Assembly (NCBI RefSeq): GCF_011047315.1
Contig: NZ_CP049259.1
Coordinates: 2,275,001 to 2,339,000, forward strand
Length of the DNA stretch: 64,000 nucleotides
From: Altererythrobacter sp. BO-6
Lineage (GTDB): Bacteria; Pseudomonadota; Alphaproteobacteria; Sphingomonadales; Sphingomonadaceae
Direction: 5' to 3'
Position numbers and translations under genes: made by a program
Shown here: positions 1 to 59,987 of the stretch, one piece after another
Numbering within the stretch: the stretch's first letter is position 1
Layout: the number at the start of each line of letters is the position of its first letter
The notes under the pieces: generated by a model
What the model was told of the DNA's origin: nothing
Databases searched by the model: none
What the model saw: only the letters and a program-made list of their open reading frames with translations

Positions 1-1085
<1,085 letters not shown>

Positions 1086-51118: not shown

Positions 51119-51230
51119 CCAGACCATCCTTCGGGAACCGCAGGTCGCCTTGCGCGGTTGCATGCGGTAGACGTTCCGCACATCGGCCGCTTACGGTTCG
51201 ATTCCGGCACAGCAGGGGGGATTGAAGCCC

Positions 51231-52508
51231 ATGCGTGATCATGAACTGCGCAAACTGGCCGTTGGCGAAATGCACCTGCGCCGCTGGCCGCAGCTGGATG
51301 TGCCCTGTGTGATCGTCCAGTGGGTGCTGATTGTCGATGACGACGAGCGCGCCGACGAACTTGCCGCGATTGAGGTCAAGGCGCTGCCGCAGGATGTGCT
51401 CGGCAATCCCAGCTATCGCGCAGGTCGGCTGGGCGAGGACGTTCGGTTCGTCTGGGAACGGCACAGCGAAGGCACCAGCCTGACCTTGTTTGCGGTAGGG
51501 GCCGCAGCCGATGCCTTCCTCGATCCTGACAGCCATGCCGAACTGCAGGCGGCACTTGACTGGGCGACCGCGCTGCCCGGCCGGATCGTGCGCAGTACCC
51601 GGATCTGGGTCGCGCAGAGCGACCGCGAGATCGAAGCGATCCTGCCCCAGGTCGGCTTCATTCCCGCAGAAACGGTGTCGTGCCATTTCGGTGGTCCGCT
51701 GCGCATGTGGTCCGACTTCCGGCTCAAAGACGATGGCTATGGCCGTCTGCTGGTTGCGGCGAATGGGGCCGATCCGGCGGAAATCACGCGCCAGGTCCAG
51801 CGGCTGCAGGAATTGGGCAATTACCGCAACCGGGCCCTGCTGGGGCTGCCGGTCGCGCGCGAATGCTGGCCCAAGCTGGATGAAGCCGAGGCCCGCCTGC
51901 GAGATCTTGCCGCGCGGATCGGCAATCGCGACGAAACCGACGACCAGCTGATGGACACCTTGTCCGAACTGTCGCTTGAGCTTGCGGCGATCGAGACATC
52001 GATCTCCTTCCGGATGGATGCGACCAAGGCCTATGCCCAGCTGGTGAACGACCGGCTGGCGCAGGTCGATCCGCGCCCGATTGCCGGCTTTGCCTCACTG
52101 ACCGATTTCACCCAGCGCCGCTTCTTCCCGGCGATGAACACCTGCGAAGCGACCACCGCGCGGGTGCGCCAGCTGGCGCTGCGTGCAGTCCAGCTGTCCT
52201 CGCTCCTTCGCGCCCGGATCGAAACGCGGATCGAGAACCAGAACGCGCAATTGCTCCATTCGATGGAGCGCAGCACACGGATGCAGGTTCGGCTGCAGCA
52301 ACTGGTCGAGGGATTCTCGGTCGTCGCGCTCAGCTATTACCTGATCGGCCTGATCGGCTATCTGCTCGCAGGATTGCCGCTGAAGGATTATGGGCTCGAC
52401 AAGACCTATGTGATCGCTGCGCTGGTGATCCCAGTTGTGTTGGTGATCTGGATCGGGATGCGCGTGCTCAAGCGGCGCCTGTTTCCCGATGGCGGAAAAC
52501 CCGGCTGA
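51231..52508 (+). CDS. DUF3422 family membrane protein
   Basis: A 425-aa protein with a large N-terminal soluble part (MRDHELRKLAVGEMHLRRWP..., FVWERHSEGTSLTLFA), a helical middle region around residues 200-340, and two C-terminal membrane segments (VVALSYYLIGLIGYLLAGL and VIAALVIPVVLVIWIGMRVL). The layout matches DUF3422 proteins, of unknown function. ATG 51231 follows 'agcagggggg'. It is the last gene before the photosynthesis cluster and on the same strand; its stop is about 50 nt before bchI. Confidence 0.83.
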   Translation: MRDHELRKLAVGEMHLRRWPQLDVPCVIVQWVLIVDDDERADELAAIEVKALPQDVLGNPSYRAGRLGEDVRFVWERHSEGTSLTLFAVGAAADAFLDPDSHAELQAALDWATALPGRIVRSTRIWVAQSDREIEAILPQVGFIPAETVSCHFGGPLRMWSDFRLKDDGYGRLLVAANGADPAEITRQVQRLQELGNYRNRALLGLPVARECWPKLDEAEARLRDLAARIGNRDETDDQLMDTLSELSLELAAIETSISFRMDATKAYAQLVNDRLAQVDPRPIAGFASLTDFTQRRFFPAMNTCEATTARVRQLALRAVQLSSLLRARIETRIENQNAQLLHSMERSTRMQVRLQQLVEGFSVVALSYYLIGLIGYLLAGLPLKDYGLDKTYVIAALVIPVVLVIWIGMRVLKRRLFPDGGKPG

Positions 52509-52520
52509 TCACTTAATCGC

Positions 52521-52549
52521 TTGTCCTGACGCTGCAACTTGTCCAGAAC
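52521..52549 (+). promoter_or_regulatory. Candidate bchI promoter (TTGTCC -35, N17, CAGAAC)
   Basis: TTGTCC at 52521-52526 and CAGAAC at 52544-52549 are spaced by 17 nt; the -10 is poor. The TTGWCC box stands exactly 38 nt before the ATG, as at crtF, which is the main reason to propose it. Transcription would then start at or next to the start codon. Confidence 0.4.
52522..52539. promoter_or_regulatory. Degenerate PpsR/CrtJ site abutting the bchI operator
   Basis: tgt-N12-act matches TGT-N12-ACA in five of six fixed bases. It directly adjoins the perfect site at 52540 with no gap and overlaps the TTGTCC box. PpsR/CrtJ often binds paired sites, so this could be the weaker partner. Confidence 0.35.
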
Positions 52550-52557
52550 AGTGGACA
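52540..52557. promoter_or_regulatory. PpsR/CrtJ operator one base before bchI
   Basis: tgtcca-gaacag-tggaca is a perfect 6-6-6 palindrome matching the TGT-N12-ACA consensus of PpsR/CrtJ, the aerobic/light repressor of photosynthesis genes. It ends one base before the bchI ATG (52559). Confidence 0.85.
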
Positions 52558-52558
52558 G

Positions 52559-53560
52559 ATGGCGCGTTTTCCCTTCTCTGCGATTGTTGGCCAGGACGAG
52601 ATGAAACTGGCGCTGCTGATCGCCTCGGTCGATCCGTCGATCGGCGGCGTCATGGTGTTTGGCGATCGCGGCACGGGCAAGTCCACCGCCAGCCGCGCGC
52701 TTGCATCCTTGCTGCCGCCGATGACCACGGTCGAGGGCTGCCGTTACCACTGCCTGCCCGAACAGCGCGGCACTTGCCCTGACCCTTGCACCTCGGGCCG
52801 TAATGCAAAGCGCGCGGTCCCGTTTGTCGATCTGCCATTGGGCGCGACCGAAGACCGGGTGGTGGGTTCGCTCGATCTTGAGAAGGCACTCAGGCAGGGT
52901 GAAAAAGCGTTCGAGCCCGGCCTCTTGGCGAAGGCGCATCGCGGGTTCCTTTATATCGACGAGATCAATTTGCTTGAGGATCACCTCGTCGATTTGCTGC
53001 TCGATGTGGCGGCATCAGGTGAAAACGTGGTCGAGCGCGAGGGGCTGTCAGTGCGCCACCGCGCCAAATTCGTGCTGATCGGCAGCGGCAACCCCGAAGA
53101 AGGCGAGCTGCGGCCGCAATTGCTCGACCGCTTTGGTCTGTCGGTCGAGGTGCGCACCCCGCGCGAAATCGAACAGCGGGTCGAGATCATGCGCCGCTGC
53201 GGCGCGCAGGAACGCGATCCGGAAGGCTTTGCCACAGAGTGGCAGGCAGAAGACGACAAGATCGTCAAGCAGATCGCGCGCGGCCAGAAACGCGTCCAGA
53301 CAATCGAGCTGCCGGACGATGTGCTGGCGGATGCAGCGCAGCTCTGCATGGCGGTGGGCGTTGACGGGCTGCGCGGCGAACTGACGCTGATGCGTGCAAG
53401 CCGCGCCTATGCGGCGCTTGCCGGTGCGCGAAAGGTCAAGCGCGAGCATGTGCTGGCGGTTGCCCCGATGGCGCTGCGCCACCGCTTGCGGCGCGATGTG
53501 CTTGACGAAACCGGCTCGACCGTGCGGATCGAACGCGCGGTGGCCGAGCTCTTCGGATGA
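52559..53560 (+). CDS. bchI: Magnesium chelatase ATPase subunit I
   Basis: A 333-aa AAA+ ATPase. With BchD and BchH it inserts Mg into protoporphyrin IX, the first committed step of bacteriochlorophyll synthesis. [21 protein letters not shown] is the standard start; Walker A is GDRGTGKST (about residue 37-45), Walker [11 protein letters not shown], and sensor [20 protein letters not shown]. The start is fixed by homology, yet there is no room for a ribosome site other than the operator arm tggaca. bchD overlaps its stop by 4 nt; bchH is not in the window. Confidence 0.97.
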
Positions 53561-56326: not shown

Positions 56327-57334
56327 TCAGTCCTTTCTGGGCATCCGGTACGGCAGCATGAATTGCACCACTGGCGAAGCGAAGCGGTCCAGATCGAGGC
56401 TTTCCTGCACCGCCACCACCTGTTCGCCATAGAGCCGCGAAGCGAGCGTCGAGCGGGCATAGAAGGGCGCATCCTCCCAGGTCTTGAGCACGCTGGCATG
56501 GCCGCGATCGGCGCGGGTCCGGCGCGTCATCTGCCACAGCGTATTGGGCAAGGGCGCGACCAGCGGCAGCTCCGCCTCGTGCGGCGTGCCCGAGGCATCA
56601 AACCGCAGCGCACTGGCAAAACCGCTGCCATCGCGGCGGACACCTTCATAGCAGACGACTGCCTCGCGTCCGAGATGCGCGCGCGACCAGTGCCATACGC
56701 GAAACCCTTCTTCCAGCGACTCGCGGCCGAAATTGGAATCGAGATAGGCCTCGCCGCTCCAGCGCAATTCTGGCTGCGTCATCTCCACTTCCACCCGCGC
56801 GCGCGGGGCAAGGCAATGCCACAGGTGGTGCCCTTCCGGATCGAGCGCAAAGGCGGTCGAATTCAGCGTCTCAGGGTAGAGCCGCACCGTGCCGCGCACG
56901 TGCCGACGCCACGGAATGCCAAGCCGTTTGTCGCGCTCGACGATGTCGATTTGCAGATGGTCGCCGTACCAGCGCACCGCGCTGGGGCCGACCTGCAACG
57001 TGTCGCGATCGCGGCGCACCAATGCGCTCTGCCGCTCGGTCATGGTCCAGCGCGCGCTCGGCCCATAGAGCGCGACGTTGAGCGCCGCGTGGTTTTCCGG
57101 CTCGTGCCGCCCGCTGGCCCTGTAATAAGGTGAGAAGACGCTGCCGACGAAGGCGATGATGGTCAGCCCGTGCCTTCGGTCTGCGCTGAGGGCATCGATA
57201 TACCACCAGCCATAGCCGCCGGGTAGGATTTCCGCATCGAAGCAAGGTCTTGCAGCACCGTCGCGGCTGCCAGCTGTCCGGACAAGGCCGCCATCGGCAC
57301 GCCCGCCCCGGGATGGGTACTGCCGCCCGCGCAA
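56327..57334 (-). CDS. crtC: Hydroxyneurosporene (acyclic carotenoid) 1,2-hydratase; start uncertain
   Basis: CrtC adds water to the end group of neurosporene/lycopene-type carotenoids. Family segments are FDAEILPGGYGWWYIDALS, LTIIAFVGSVFSPYYR, HAALNVALYGPSARWTMTER and LDSNFGRESLEEGFRVWHWSRA. The sequence resembles CrtC from about 57241 downwards, but no ATG, GTG or TTG lies between there and TTG 57334, 57 nt or more inside the crtD 3' end; ATG 57388 is the next. TTG 57334 is used here provisionally (335 aa). The overlap with crtD is therefore at least about 80 nt and perhaps 172 nt. The minimal conserved protein is about 305 aa. Confidence 0.85.
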   Translation of the reverse strand: MRGRQYPSRGGRADGGLVRTAGSRDGAARPCFDAEILPGGYGWWYIDALSADRRHGLTIIAFVGSVFSPYYRASGRHEPENHAALNVALYGPSARWTMTERQSALVRRDRDTLQVGPSAVRWYGDHLQIDIVERDKRLGIPWRRHVRGTVRLYPETLNSTAFALDPEGHHLWHCLAPRARVEVEMTQPELRWSGEAYLDSNFGRESLEEGFRVWHWSRAHLGREAVVCYEGVRRDGSGFASALRFDASGTPHEAELPLVAPLPNTLWQMTRRTRADRGHASVLKTWEDAPFYARSTLASRLYGEQVVAVQESLDLDRFASPVVQFMLPYRMPRKD

Positions 57335-58725
57335 TAGAGCGCAGGGATCCGCGTGCGTGTGCCCTGGCGGAGGAAGGACGCCGCCCATCCGTGCGAGGCC
57401 CGTCCATAGATCGCTCCGCCGGTCGAGGGCCAGAGCCTCTCGAATGTATTCGGCGTCGCCAGCTGGTGCGCGAAGGGTTCCTCCAGTTCCAGTCCGCAGC
57501 GGCTGAGGCTGCGCGTCATGGCGGTGGTGCATCGCTCGATCTCCTCGGAAGTATAGGCATGGGTGTCGCCATCGGCTGGCGCATTGACGATGATCTGTAG
57601 CCGTTCGCGGCCTGTTGGTTCGGGGGCACCAACCACGGCGCCGCGATCCTGCGCGCAGACATAGACAGTCGGGTCAGACGGCAGGGAGCCGTCAGCGATG
57701 TCGGCGAACTCGCGCGGATAATCCGGCGAGAAGAAGACATTGTGCCGCACCAGCGGAAAGCCCGTCGATTTGCTGTGCGCATACCAGACGAAGGCGGAGA
57801 GCGAGCGCTTGCCAGCCGGGTAGGCGCTGACCGCGCGGGCGGCGTGATTGCCGAACCGGCCAGCGGCAATCGCTGCCGGATCGGCATTGGTGATCACGGC
57901 ATCGGCAGCAATCCGCTCGCCATTTGCGAGTATCACGCCGCTGGCGCGCCCGCCCGTTAGCTCGACCCGTTCAACCGCCTCGCCGAAGCGGTAGTGCGCA
58001 CCATGGCGCTCACCCAGCTTTTGCAGCGCAGCGGCCAGCGCGCTCATCCCGCCATCGATCAGCCACACGCCCATCGCCTCGACATGGGCGATCAGCATCA
58101 GCGTAGCGGGCGCGGCAAAGGGCGATGAACCGCAATAGGTCGAATAGCGCGCGAACAGCTGGCGCAGCCGCTGGTCCGGGAAATGGCTGCCCAGCGCATT
58201 CCACATCGATGTGTAGGGGTGGATGGCGTGCAGGTCAGCGATATTGGCGAGGCCGATCCGCCACATCAGCGCGGGCGGCCAGGCGGGCTTGCTGGCGCGC
58301 AGCATCGTGTCATTGAGCGTCGCATAGATCCGCCGGGCATCGGCCCTGAATGCGCGGTAACCCGCTGCTGCAGCCGCTCCGGCAAAATCGCCGATCCCTT
58401 CCTCGCTGCGCTGTGGGTCAGCGTAGAGATCAAGTTGAGCTTGATCGTCCCACGCATGCCGCGCCAGGATCGAGGCTCGGCTGGTCGACACGTAATCGTC
58501 CAGTTCTGCGCCCGCTGCTCGGAAAATGCCATCGAACACATCGCGCAGGGTGAAGACGGTCGGCCCGCCGTCGATCATCGCGCCATCGACCTCGACGGTG
58601 CGTGCCTTGCCGCCTGCCCAGCTATCTTTCTCGACCACGGTGACGTGGCATCCGCGCGCGGCAAGCAGCGCCGCACAGGCGAGACCGCCCATGCCGGCAC
58701 CGATCACTACCACGCGTCCGGCCAA
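57163..58725 (-). CDS. crtD: Methoxyneurosporene/hydroxyneurosporene 3,4-desaturase (CrtI-type)
   Basis: A 520-aa FAD-dependent carotenoid desaturase. The N-terminal dinucleotide site is RVVVIGAGMGGLACAALLAARGCHVTVVEK, and the C-terminal FAD segment is YCAGGSTHPGAGVPMAALSGQLAA. With CrtC and CrtF it makes spheroidene/spirilloxanthin-type pigments. The start is TTG 58725, directly preceded by 'gggaggggcga'; the longer frame to TTG 58773 enters the PpsR operator and has no ribosome site. It is divergent from crtF; the shared operator lies 42-59 nt upstream. Confidence 0.93.
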   Translation of the reverse strand: MAGRVVVIGAGMGGLACAALLAARGCHVTVVEKDSWAGGKARTVEVDGAMIDGGPTVFTLRDVFDGIFRAAGAELDDYVSTSRASILARHAWDDQAQLDLYADPQRSEEGIGDFAGAAAAAGYRAFRADARRIYATLNDTMLRASKPAWPPALMWRIGLANIADLHAIHPYTSMWNALGSHFPDQRLRQLFARYSTYCGSSPFAAPATLMLIAHVEAMGVWLIDGGMSALAAALQKLGERHGAHYRFGEAVERVELTGGRASGVILANGERIAADAVITNADPAAIAAGRFGNHAARAVSAYPAGKRSLSAFVWYAHSKSTGFPLVRHNVFFSPDYPREFADIADGSLPSDPTVYVCAQDRGAVVGAPEPTGRERLQIIVNAPADGDTHAYTSEEIERCTTAMTRSLSRCGLELEEPFAHQLATPNTFERLWPSTGGAIYGRASHGWAASFLRQGTRTRIPALYCAGGSTHPGAGVPMAALSGQLAAATVLQDLASMRKSYPAAMAGGISMPSAQTEGTG

Positions 58726-58747
58726 TCGCCCCTCCCACGCATTGTGT

Positions 58748-58776
58748 TTGACCTTTACATAACAGATGTCCAATCA
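58748..58776 (+). promoter_or_regulatory. Candidate crtF promoter (TTGACC -35, N17, CAATCA)
   Basis: TTGACC at 58748-58753 and the AT-rich CAATCA at 58771-58776 are spaced 17 nt. The TTGWCC box is exactly 38 nt upstream of the crtF ATG, as at bchI. The start of transcription would fall at the start codon. Confidence 0.45.
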
Positions 58777-58784
58777 AATGGACA
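58767..58784. promoter_or_regulatory. PpsR/CrtJ operator between crtD and crtF
   Basis: tgtcca-atcaaa-tggaca, a perfect 6-6-6 palindrome of the TGT-N12-ACA type with the same arms as the bchI site. It ends one base before the crtF ATG (58786) and can serve both divergent genes. Confidence 0.88.
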
Positions 58785-58785
58785 C

Positions 58786-59934
58786 ATGGAGTCGTCAAGC
58801 TCTCAAAAATCCTCTGGAGCCGCCTCCGGATGGAAACTGCGCTGGATCGCCTGGCGCAATCGTGTGCTGGCCGATCCGCGCTTTCAGGACTGGGCCGCGC
58901 GCAACTGGCTGACCCGCCGCGTGGCGCGGCGCAAGGCACGTGAAGTGTTCGATCTGGTCGCAGGCTTTACCTACACGCAGACCCTGCTGGCAGTGCTGGA
59001 AAGCGGATTGCTCGATCGGCTGGGCGAGGGGCCGTGCAGCCTTGCGGACGCGGCGGCCGTTGCGGGCCTGGGCGAGGCAGCGACCGAGCGACTCGTCAAG
59101 GCGGCGGCCGCGCTCGATCTCGCCGAGGAAGTCGCGCCAAAGGTATGGATGCTGGGGCAGCGCGGCGCAGCGTTGAGCACCCAGGAAGGGGCGAAGGCGA
59201 TGATTCGCCATCACCCGTTGCTTTATCGCGACCTGGCCGATCCGCTGGCGCTGCTGCGGCAGGACCGGTCAGCGCCGACCGAGCTGTCAGAATTCTGGCG
59301 CTATGCCGCGCGCGCGGACGCCGATGCGGAGGCCGAGTCGGCGGTCACGCCTTATTCGCAATTGATGGCGGCCTCACAGGCGATGGTCGCGCGCGAAGTG
59401 CTGCGCGCCTATCGCTTCGGCAGGCATGCGGCGCTGCTCGATGTCGGTGGCGGGCACGGGGCCTTCGCCAGCGCGGTTGCCGAGCACTACCCCGCATTGC
59501 GACTCGGCATCTTCGACCTGCCGGGTGTTGTTGCCGGTTCAGCCGAACGACTTGCGCGGCAGGGAGTGGATCAGGTCGAGCTCCACGGAGGCGATTTCTT
59601 CAAAGACCGATTGCCGCAAGGGTATGACTGCATCTCGCTCGTGCGCATCCTGCACGATCATGACGATGATGCTGCGCAGGCGATCCTGGCCGCGACTCGG
59701 AAGGCACTGCCTGAAGGCGGTCGGCTGCTGATTGCCGAGCCGATGGCTGGAATCCGCGGCGCCGAGGCGATGGGTGACGCCTATTTCGGCCTCTACCTGT
59801 GGACAATGCGCTCTGGCCGGCCGCGCACCCGCGACGAGCTGGAAACGATGCTGCGCAAGGCGGGATTCGGCCGTTGGCAGCACCTTTCGCCGGCTCAACC
59901 GCTGATCACAAGTGTCACTGTCGCTTTTGCCTGA
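58786..59934 (+). CDS. crtF: Demethylspheroidene O-methyltransferase
   Basis: A 382-aa SAM-dependent O-methyltransferase that methylates the 1-hydroxy group of carotenoids. An N-terminal winged-helix dimer domain (FDLVAGFTYTQTLLAVLESGLLDRLGEGP) precedes the SAM domain: LLDVGGGHGAFASAVAEHYP, then ISLVRILHDHDDDAAQAIL with the catalytic His, and FGLYLWTMRSGRPRTRDELETML. ATG 58786 has no ribosome site, the PpsR site filling the space just before it. bchC follows after 114 nt with its own promoter. Confidence 0.95.
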   Translation: MESSSSQKSSGAASGWKLRWIAWRNRVLADPRFQDWAARNWLTRRVARRKAREVFDLVAGFTYTQTLLAVLESGLLDRLGEGPCSLADAAAVAGLGEAATERLVKAAAALDLAEEVAPKVWMLGQRGAALSTQEGAKAMIRHHPLLYRDLADPLALLRQDRSAPTELSEFWRYAARADADAEAESAVTPYSQLMAASQAMVAREVLRAYRFGRHAALLDVGGGHGAFASAVAEHYPALRLGIFDLPGVVAGSAERLARQGVDQVELHGGDFFKDRLPQGYDCISLVRILHDHDDDAAQAILAATRKALPEGGRLLIAEPMAGIRGAEAMGDAYFGLYLWTMRSGRPRTRDELETMLRKAGFGRWQHLSPAQPLITSVTVAFA

Positions 59935-59943
59935 CATCAAAGT

Positions 59944-59961
59944 TGTCTTGCATCATTGACA
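59944..59961. promoter_or_regulatory. PpsR/CrtJ operator 1 of bchC (covers -35)
   Basis: tgt-cttgcatcattg-aca fits TGT-N12-ACA exactly. Its right arm supplies the TTGACA -35 box of the bchC promoter. Confidence 0.82.
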
Positions 59962-59983
59962 CTCAGTACTGTCAGGCTATGAT
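59956..59983 (+). promoter_or_regulatory. bchC promoter (TTGACA, N16, TATGAT)
   Basis: A perfect -35 TTGACA (59956-59961) is followed after 16 nt by TATGAT (59978-59983). The start of transcription would lie near 59990, giving a leader of about 60 nt before the bchC ATG. Both boxes lie inside PpsR sites. Confidence 0.65.
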
Positions 59984-59987
59984 GACA
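59970..59987. promoter_or_regulatory. PpsR/CrtJ operator 2 of bchC (covers -10)
   Basis: tgt-caggctatgatg-aca fits TGT-N12-ACA exactly. It is 26 bp from operator 1, centre to centre, and covers the -10 box. Confidence 0.82.

Follow-up and report, generated by a model that had tools for sequence, protein, structure and literature searches.

A PpsR-type operator, a -35-like box and an adjacent AUG in fixed array at crtF and bchI of Altererythrobacter sp. BO-6, with a mini-ORF overlapping the crtF start in relatives

The palindrome TGT-N12-ACA is the target of PpsR/CrtJ (PMC10890935), and the closest described counterpart of the promoters reported here is that of bchF in Dinoroseobacter shibae. 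As described in the accessible sections of that paper, TGT-N12-ACA palindromes lie there over the -10 element and the start, and are proposed to block the sigma-70 RNA polymerase; two sites are involved, on the -10/start and on the -35, the ACA half-site that was mutated being at -30/-28 relative to the translational start (PMC10890935). On the side of translation, the available parts of three other sources are pertinent. In Escherichia coli, 5'-terminal AUGs load ribosomes and open short upstream ORFs (uORFs) that can affect the downstream gene (PMC4965119). In Sinorhizobium meliloti, trpL is leaderless and encodes the 14-residue leader of a transcription attenuator (PMC7298713). Finally, a review of translational coupling describes NTGA, TGATG and TAATG overlaps, and short upstream ORFs that deliver the ribosome to the next gene (PMC12548453).

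We analyzed a stretch of 64,000 nucleotides of Altererythrobacter sp. BO-6 (hereafter the window; contig NZ_CP049259.1, positions 2,275,001 to 2,339,000), and compared its crtF and bchI promoters with those of relatives in the genus and the family. Our main finding is that, upstream of crtF, a -35-like box and a PpsR-type operator stand at a conserved distance from each other, and that in most of the genus the operator is followed, after a single base, by an ATG that opens either crtF itself or a mini-ORF whose stop usually overlaps the crtF start. We consider it probable, if well short of certain, that both crtF and bchI have sigma-70-type, PpsR-occluded, near-leaderless promoters, and that the crtF AUG is either fused to the gene or coupled to it, stop to start, by way of the mini-ORF.

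Set beside the described systems, crtF resembles D. shibae bchF in that a palindrome overlaps the -10/start within a region common to divergent genes; unlike the two-site bchF of the sections cited, it has a single site, with just 1 nt between it and the AUG, and the tandem form is found in the window at bchC (PMC10890935). An AUG at the presumed 5' end opening a short ORF before a gene recalls the E. coli uORFs, although the downstream genes in that account, as far as its available part goes, carry a Shine-Dalgarno sequence (SD), whereas crtF has no clear SD and, in 62 of 70 genomes, a start that the mini-ORF stop overlaps (PMC4965119). Like trpL, it would be an alphaproteobacterial leader ORF starting at the 5' AUG of the transcript; unlike that attenuator leader, as the excerpted source presents it, the mini-ORF overlaps the next start directly and has no conserved peptide sequence, 65 distinct peptides being found among 70 (PMC7298713). 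The overlap types are those of the coupling review; compared with the cases in the portion available, the short ORF of crtF differs in being putatively leaderless, in lying directly under a repressor operator, and in being kept in most of the genus without a conserved peptide (PMC12548453). No report of this arrangement of operator, AUG and mini-ORF was found in the literature searched, most subscription journals being outside its coverage.

In the window, the O-methyltransferase gene crtF (58786..59934, + strand) is named from its position and domain, no NCBIfam model exceeding its cut-off. It is preceded by a -35-like box TTGACC (58748..58753, +), 13 nucleotides, the PpsR-type operator TGTCCAATCAAATGGACA (58767..58784, no strand assigned), which lies between crtF and the divergent crtD, a single c, and the ATG (58786..58788, +). 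The order at bchI (52559..53560, +; TIGR02030, 482 bits, over cut-off) is the same: TTGTCC (52521..52526, +), 13 nucleotides, the PpsR-type operator TGTCCAGAACAGTGGACA (52540..52557, no strand assigned), a single g, and the ATG at 52559. The original prediction had noted identical arms, a one-base gap and 38 nt from box to ATG at both genes, with different bases in between, and all of this can be read directly from the sequence. It had also called the two promoters unlinked; they are separate, yet a single photosynthesis gene cluster holds both, at a distance of only 6.2 kb. Upstream of bchI, the 50 nt between the stop of the adjacent DUF3422 protein gene (51222-52508) and the bchI ATG hold both box and operator.

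The genome-wide search that had been proposed, for TTGWCC-N13-TGTCCA-N6-TGGACA-N-ATG, returned two matches, crtF and bchI, in 3,035,715 bases, against none for the reversed-pattern control. The exact palindrome TGTCCA-N6-TGGACA is itself restricted to these two promoters. When up to 2 mismatches are allowed, it occurs at 98 places compared to 53 for the control, so that near-matches to the palindrome mean little.

Both operators fit the TGT-N12-ACA palindrome, and a PpsR is encoded in the same genome, about 8.8 kb past the end of the window (TIGR02040, 380.5 bits for a cut-off of 275.4; PAS domain and HTH_8, a Fis-type HTH). PpsR would accordingly be a plausible ligand of the two operators, judging from motif and gene content. 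At a threshold of at least 5 of 6 arm pairs, crtF and bchI each have a single site and no tandem palindrome. The contrasting case is bchC, with two PpsR-type sites 8 bp apart (59944..59961 and 59970..59987, no strand assigned); these enclose a TTGACA/TATGAT pair with 16 nt in between, unlike the sites of crtF and bchI. Among relatives, L016 and L118 have a second PpsR-like palindrome within the first codons of crtF, following the first palindrome after 8 or 6 nt, and the copy in L016 is imperfect. In the genus, often just a TGT is left at op+25 (each base at 65-68%; op positions are counted from the first base of the operator).

On the other side of the operator, crtD (57163..58725, - strand; NF045637, 648.8 bits, over cut-off) reads leftwards from a TTG whose first base, 58725, comes 42nd counting from the operator, in agreement with the original prediction, with a strong SD, GGGAGGGG (58729..58736, -), in front of it. 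BchI, CrtD, BchC, BchX and BchY all score over their NCBIfam cut-offs. A candidate extended -10 for crtD, TG-T-TATGTA (58756..58764, -), is placed by its position in the crtF spacer, and visual inspection shows a similar motif, TGNTAN, in some of the relatives. With this element just beyond the operator, the operator would cover the -35 region of crtD.

The genus set comprised 114 genomes, of which 85 encode CrtF and 82 have a usable upstream region; G436, G483 and G486, in which the N-terminus is missing, were left out. All 82 loci have TTGAC at a distance of exactly 19 nt ahead of the operator. Within the spacer, bases op-11 to op-5 drop to 36-67%, the others being at 68-91%. Elsewhere in the family, 56 crtF loci were fetched, and 41 have an operator scoring at least 10 of 12; TTG is at op-19 in 37 of these, over 24 genus codes, and absent from L174, L200, L212 and L216. 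In a separate named set, window included, 29 loci have a TGT-N12-ACA site; the TTG is at op-19 in 27 of them (all but L046 and L070), and an in-frame ATG stands one base past the operator in 23. The titles of L045 (Klebsiella), L031 (Tychonema), L029 (Myxococcota), L070 (Solirubrobacterales) and L079 (Archangium) clash with their proteobacterial-type CrtF; these sequences are probably misbinned or contaminated.

A fixed distance of this kind fits a -35 box whose -10 lies inside the operator. The putative crtF -10 region (58771..58777, +), assigned by position 17-18 nt from the box, is weak: the window has a poor CAATCA/AATCAA, and the genus consensus at op+5..10 is AATTAT. The corresponding bchI element, a putative CAGAAC (52544..52549, +), is also within its operator and has similar hexamers in relatives. 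A hexamer that could serve as a -10, spaced 16-18 nt from the box, is visible in many bchI orthologs and weak at the crtF of the window. The TTGWCC box could instead be a degenerate PpsR half-site or the site of another regulator, as TTGAC resembles the right arm of the PpsR palindrome and TTGTCC contains TGTCC. We find this improbable: upstream of the crtF box the genus consensus has no partner arm at palindrome spacing, the TTG at bchI is kept where no operator overlies the promoter (for example in L003, L004, L006 and L017), and the distance of the box suits a -35/-10 pair. We also rejected the idea that the crtF box belongs to a second PpsR palindrome, since the genus consensus has no left arm where one would be needed.

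The bchI orthologs give a different picture of spacing. BchI is encoded in 82 of 397 family genomes; 80 loci were read, window included, and 76 kept, L181, L183, L196 and L203 being set aside as their start could not be placed. Of the 76, 67 carry a TTG at -34 to -40, and 13 have it exactly at -38. A TA at -14 to -12, as would be expected of the -10 of a transcript starting at the AUG, amounts by weight to 23.6 of 32 genera (a locus with two TAs counting twice). The bchI of the window lacks this TA, common in other genera, and has CAGAAC instead; hexamers like it occur at -15 in L005, L008, L011, L015, L022 and L024 (operator) and in L004 (no operator).

An exact TGT-N12-ACA at -19 of bchI is present in just 6 of 76 loci (the window, L139, L140, L141, L143 and L149), all of them with a TTG 19 nt before it. 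Some operator-like site scoring at least 9 is found in 24 of the 76. In 15 loci the best such site starts at -30 to -15; 6 of these have the TTG 19 nt before it and 9 do not, L184, L192 and L217 among them. In the named set with the window (32 loci), all 12 with an operator score of at least 9 (11 named and the window) have the TTG 19 nt before the site. Both box-to-ATG and box-to-site distances thus vary across bchI orthologs, the very variation that had been named as counting against the prediction, and the 38-nt spacing is ruled out as a universal class. The proposed promoter class finds support at crtF in the -35-like box at fixed spacing, in a PpsR-type operator placed where the -10/+1 would be expected, in the single operator that separates crtF from crtD, and in the lack of a clear SD before the ATG; identical spacing as a general rule is not supported.

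With a TTG at -34 to -40 common and an operator at -19 rare, a leaderless-type bchI promoter appears to be widespread, and the layout shared with crtF to be lineage-specific. The crtF layout is strongly conserved, and the bchI layout is one lineage's solution. A genome-wide pattern for the bchI-type promoter without operator gave 6 matches, compared to 1 for the reversed control, and bchI is not among the 6. In four loci of genus code g2 (L154, L158, L162 and L163) a PpsR-like palindrome lies upstream of the bchI -35 box, at -59/-60, and not over the -10; the operator appears to have shifted in these loci, the TTG box having stayed near bchI. In L184, L192, L202, L207 and L217, TGT-N12-ACA lies over the bchI promoter at other spacings (start at -21 to -28), so that the register of the operator over this promoter is not fixed.

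The ATG next to the crtF operator stands at op+19 in 74 of the 82 genus loci. It opens crtF in frame in four (the window, L220, L223 and L224); in 70 of the 82 genomes it opens not crtF but a mini-ORF of 6-10 codons (8 codons in 54, 6 in 8, 9 in 7, and 10 in one). Overlap of the mini-ORF stop with an in-frame crtF start takes the form NTGA in 50 genomes, and that of a start at +2 (TGATG, TAATG type) in 12; the other eight comprise five with a 2-nt gap and L249, L262 and L287, which differ. Such an overlap is absent from the window, where ATG 58786 is in frame with crtF. When the interior of the mini-ORF was shuffled with the start position kept, overlap was obtained in about 16% of cases (60 overlapping loci). 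ATG or GTG is found at +2 in 12 of 19 loci without NTGA versus 4 of 51 with it (Fisher p = 5.3e-6; the overlap statistics, this one included, make no correction for shared descent). On a quick tree of the 82 flank sequences, in which 23 of 79 inner branches are unresolved, it takes no fewer than 23 changes to account for the eight junction states, and 7 for the +2 type by itself. Two loci of other genera, L202 and L136, have an overlapping mini-ORF, and L185, from another genus, has one that does not overlap the crtF start. L287 (G505) has a GTGA junction, as its relatives do, but crtF is out of frame with it by one; an assembly error in an incomplete genome may be the cause.

The op+19 ATG is missing from eight genus loci (L221, L222, L299, L235, L241, L247, L253 and L289). 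The first three are, on the quick tree, three of the four nearest relatives of the window; they keep the crtF box and operator, and their crtF starts at op+31/32 behind a good SD (-6.6). The crtD side, with crtD placed in all 82 loci, served as a control: 43 of 82 loci have an ATG one base from the operator; it is never the start of crtD, and the frame that it opens has a stop overlapping a crtD start in 4 of the 43. On these counts, crtD was rejected as a second leaderless gene on the shared operator.

These results bear on another reading, in which crtF has a conventional PpsR-repressed promoter and nothing more, the ATG reflecting a preference of the operator flank or of the initial transcribed region, the mini-ORFs being by-products, and crtF starting internally and independently of an SD. 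SD-independent starts are common in bacteria, eight genus loci do without the ATG, and its frequency on the crtD side, where there is no coupling, means that the flank could in part reflect a preference at the level of the DNA. We nevertheless hold this reading to be unlikely, though a serious contender, because overlap in 62 of 70 far exceeds both the shuffled value and the 4 of 43 on the crtD side, NTGA and +2 starts substitute for each other, and the same overlapping mini-ORFs recur in two other genera. Another possibility is a programmed frameshift near the mini-ORF stop, in place of reinitiation, yielding a CrtF extended at its N-terminus from the op+19 AUG. It could draw on the fact that 68 of the 70 mini-ORFs (all but L249 and L287) are in one frame relative to crtF and on the recurrent length of 8 codons in 54; we regard it as the least probable reading of all, since the start codon overlaps the stop in 62 of 70 and shifts position where NTGA is lost, and visual inspection of the listed genus loci showed no common slippery sequence. 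Reinitiation after the mini-ORF is the reading we retain.

The energy of SD pairing before the op+19 ATG averages -0.44 in the 70 mini-ORF loci, compared to -2.86 at random window positions. In the window, crtF (-2.4) and bchI (-2.5) are close to this background mean and crtD is at -10.4; with the canonical anti-SD, no clear SD is thus seen before the AUG. The canonical sequence, used in all these calculations, may not be the 3' end of the genome's own 16S rRNA, and a variant anti-SD core is reported for Erythrobacter litoralis in the available part of one study (PMC10783764). The 16S rRNA itself gave no match to RF00177 or to two conserved patterns; the genome is rated 99.8% complete and the gene is presumably missing from this copy. 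From the position of the promoter, which suggests where the 5' end lies, crtF and bchI would be leaderless, with a leader of 0-3 nt at crtF.

We propose the following mechanism. The TTG box would act as a -35, with a degenerate -10 about 17 bp further on, in a promoter so near the gene that the transcript starts at the AUG or within about 3 nt of it. The single PpsR palindrome would overlie the -10/+1, such that bound PpsR keeps RNA polymerase off crtF and, by way of the -35 region of crtD, shuts it out from the divergent gene as well. The first AUG would then be a leaderless entry point for the ribosome. The AUG of the window shares the frame of crtF and is fused to it; in the species with a mini-ORF, a ribosome loaded at the 5' AUG would terminate and restart on crtF, as the overlap of stop and start in 62 genomes suggests. 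Leaderless initiation and reinitiation at crtF are deduced here from sequence.

A broader interpretation, to which we give about even chances, is that operator and leaderless AUG form one conserved unit in the genus. The AUG would be the fixed entry to crtF, and the frame behind it would vary, being fused, coupled or replaced by an SD. If the mini-ORF merely delivers the ribosome to an SD-less start, the DNA stretch under PpsR control would also be the one that defines ribosome loading.

Overall, the original prediction was right in outline and wrong in its universality, the arrangement being strongly conserved at crtF and lineage-specific at bchI. The conserved AUG next to the operator, with its presumably coupled mini-ORF, is of more interest than the layout itself, and would be a variation on known kinds. 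Here the site of a redox/light repressor, a promoter that is near-leaderless and a coupled mini-ORF would come together in one 60-base stretch, of which 82 natural variants are at hand. One consequence is that annotations may be wrong for crtF starts and for leader peptides controlled by photosynthesis promoters. Moreover, the natural series of fused, coupled and SD-led forms can serve to test, in Alphaproteobacteria, whether leaderless initiation feeds a downstream gene by reinitiation.
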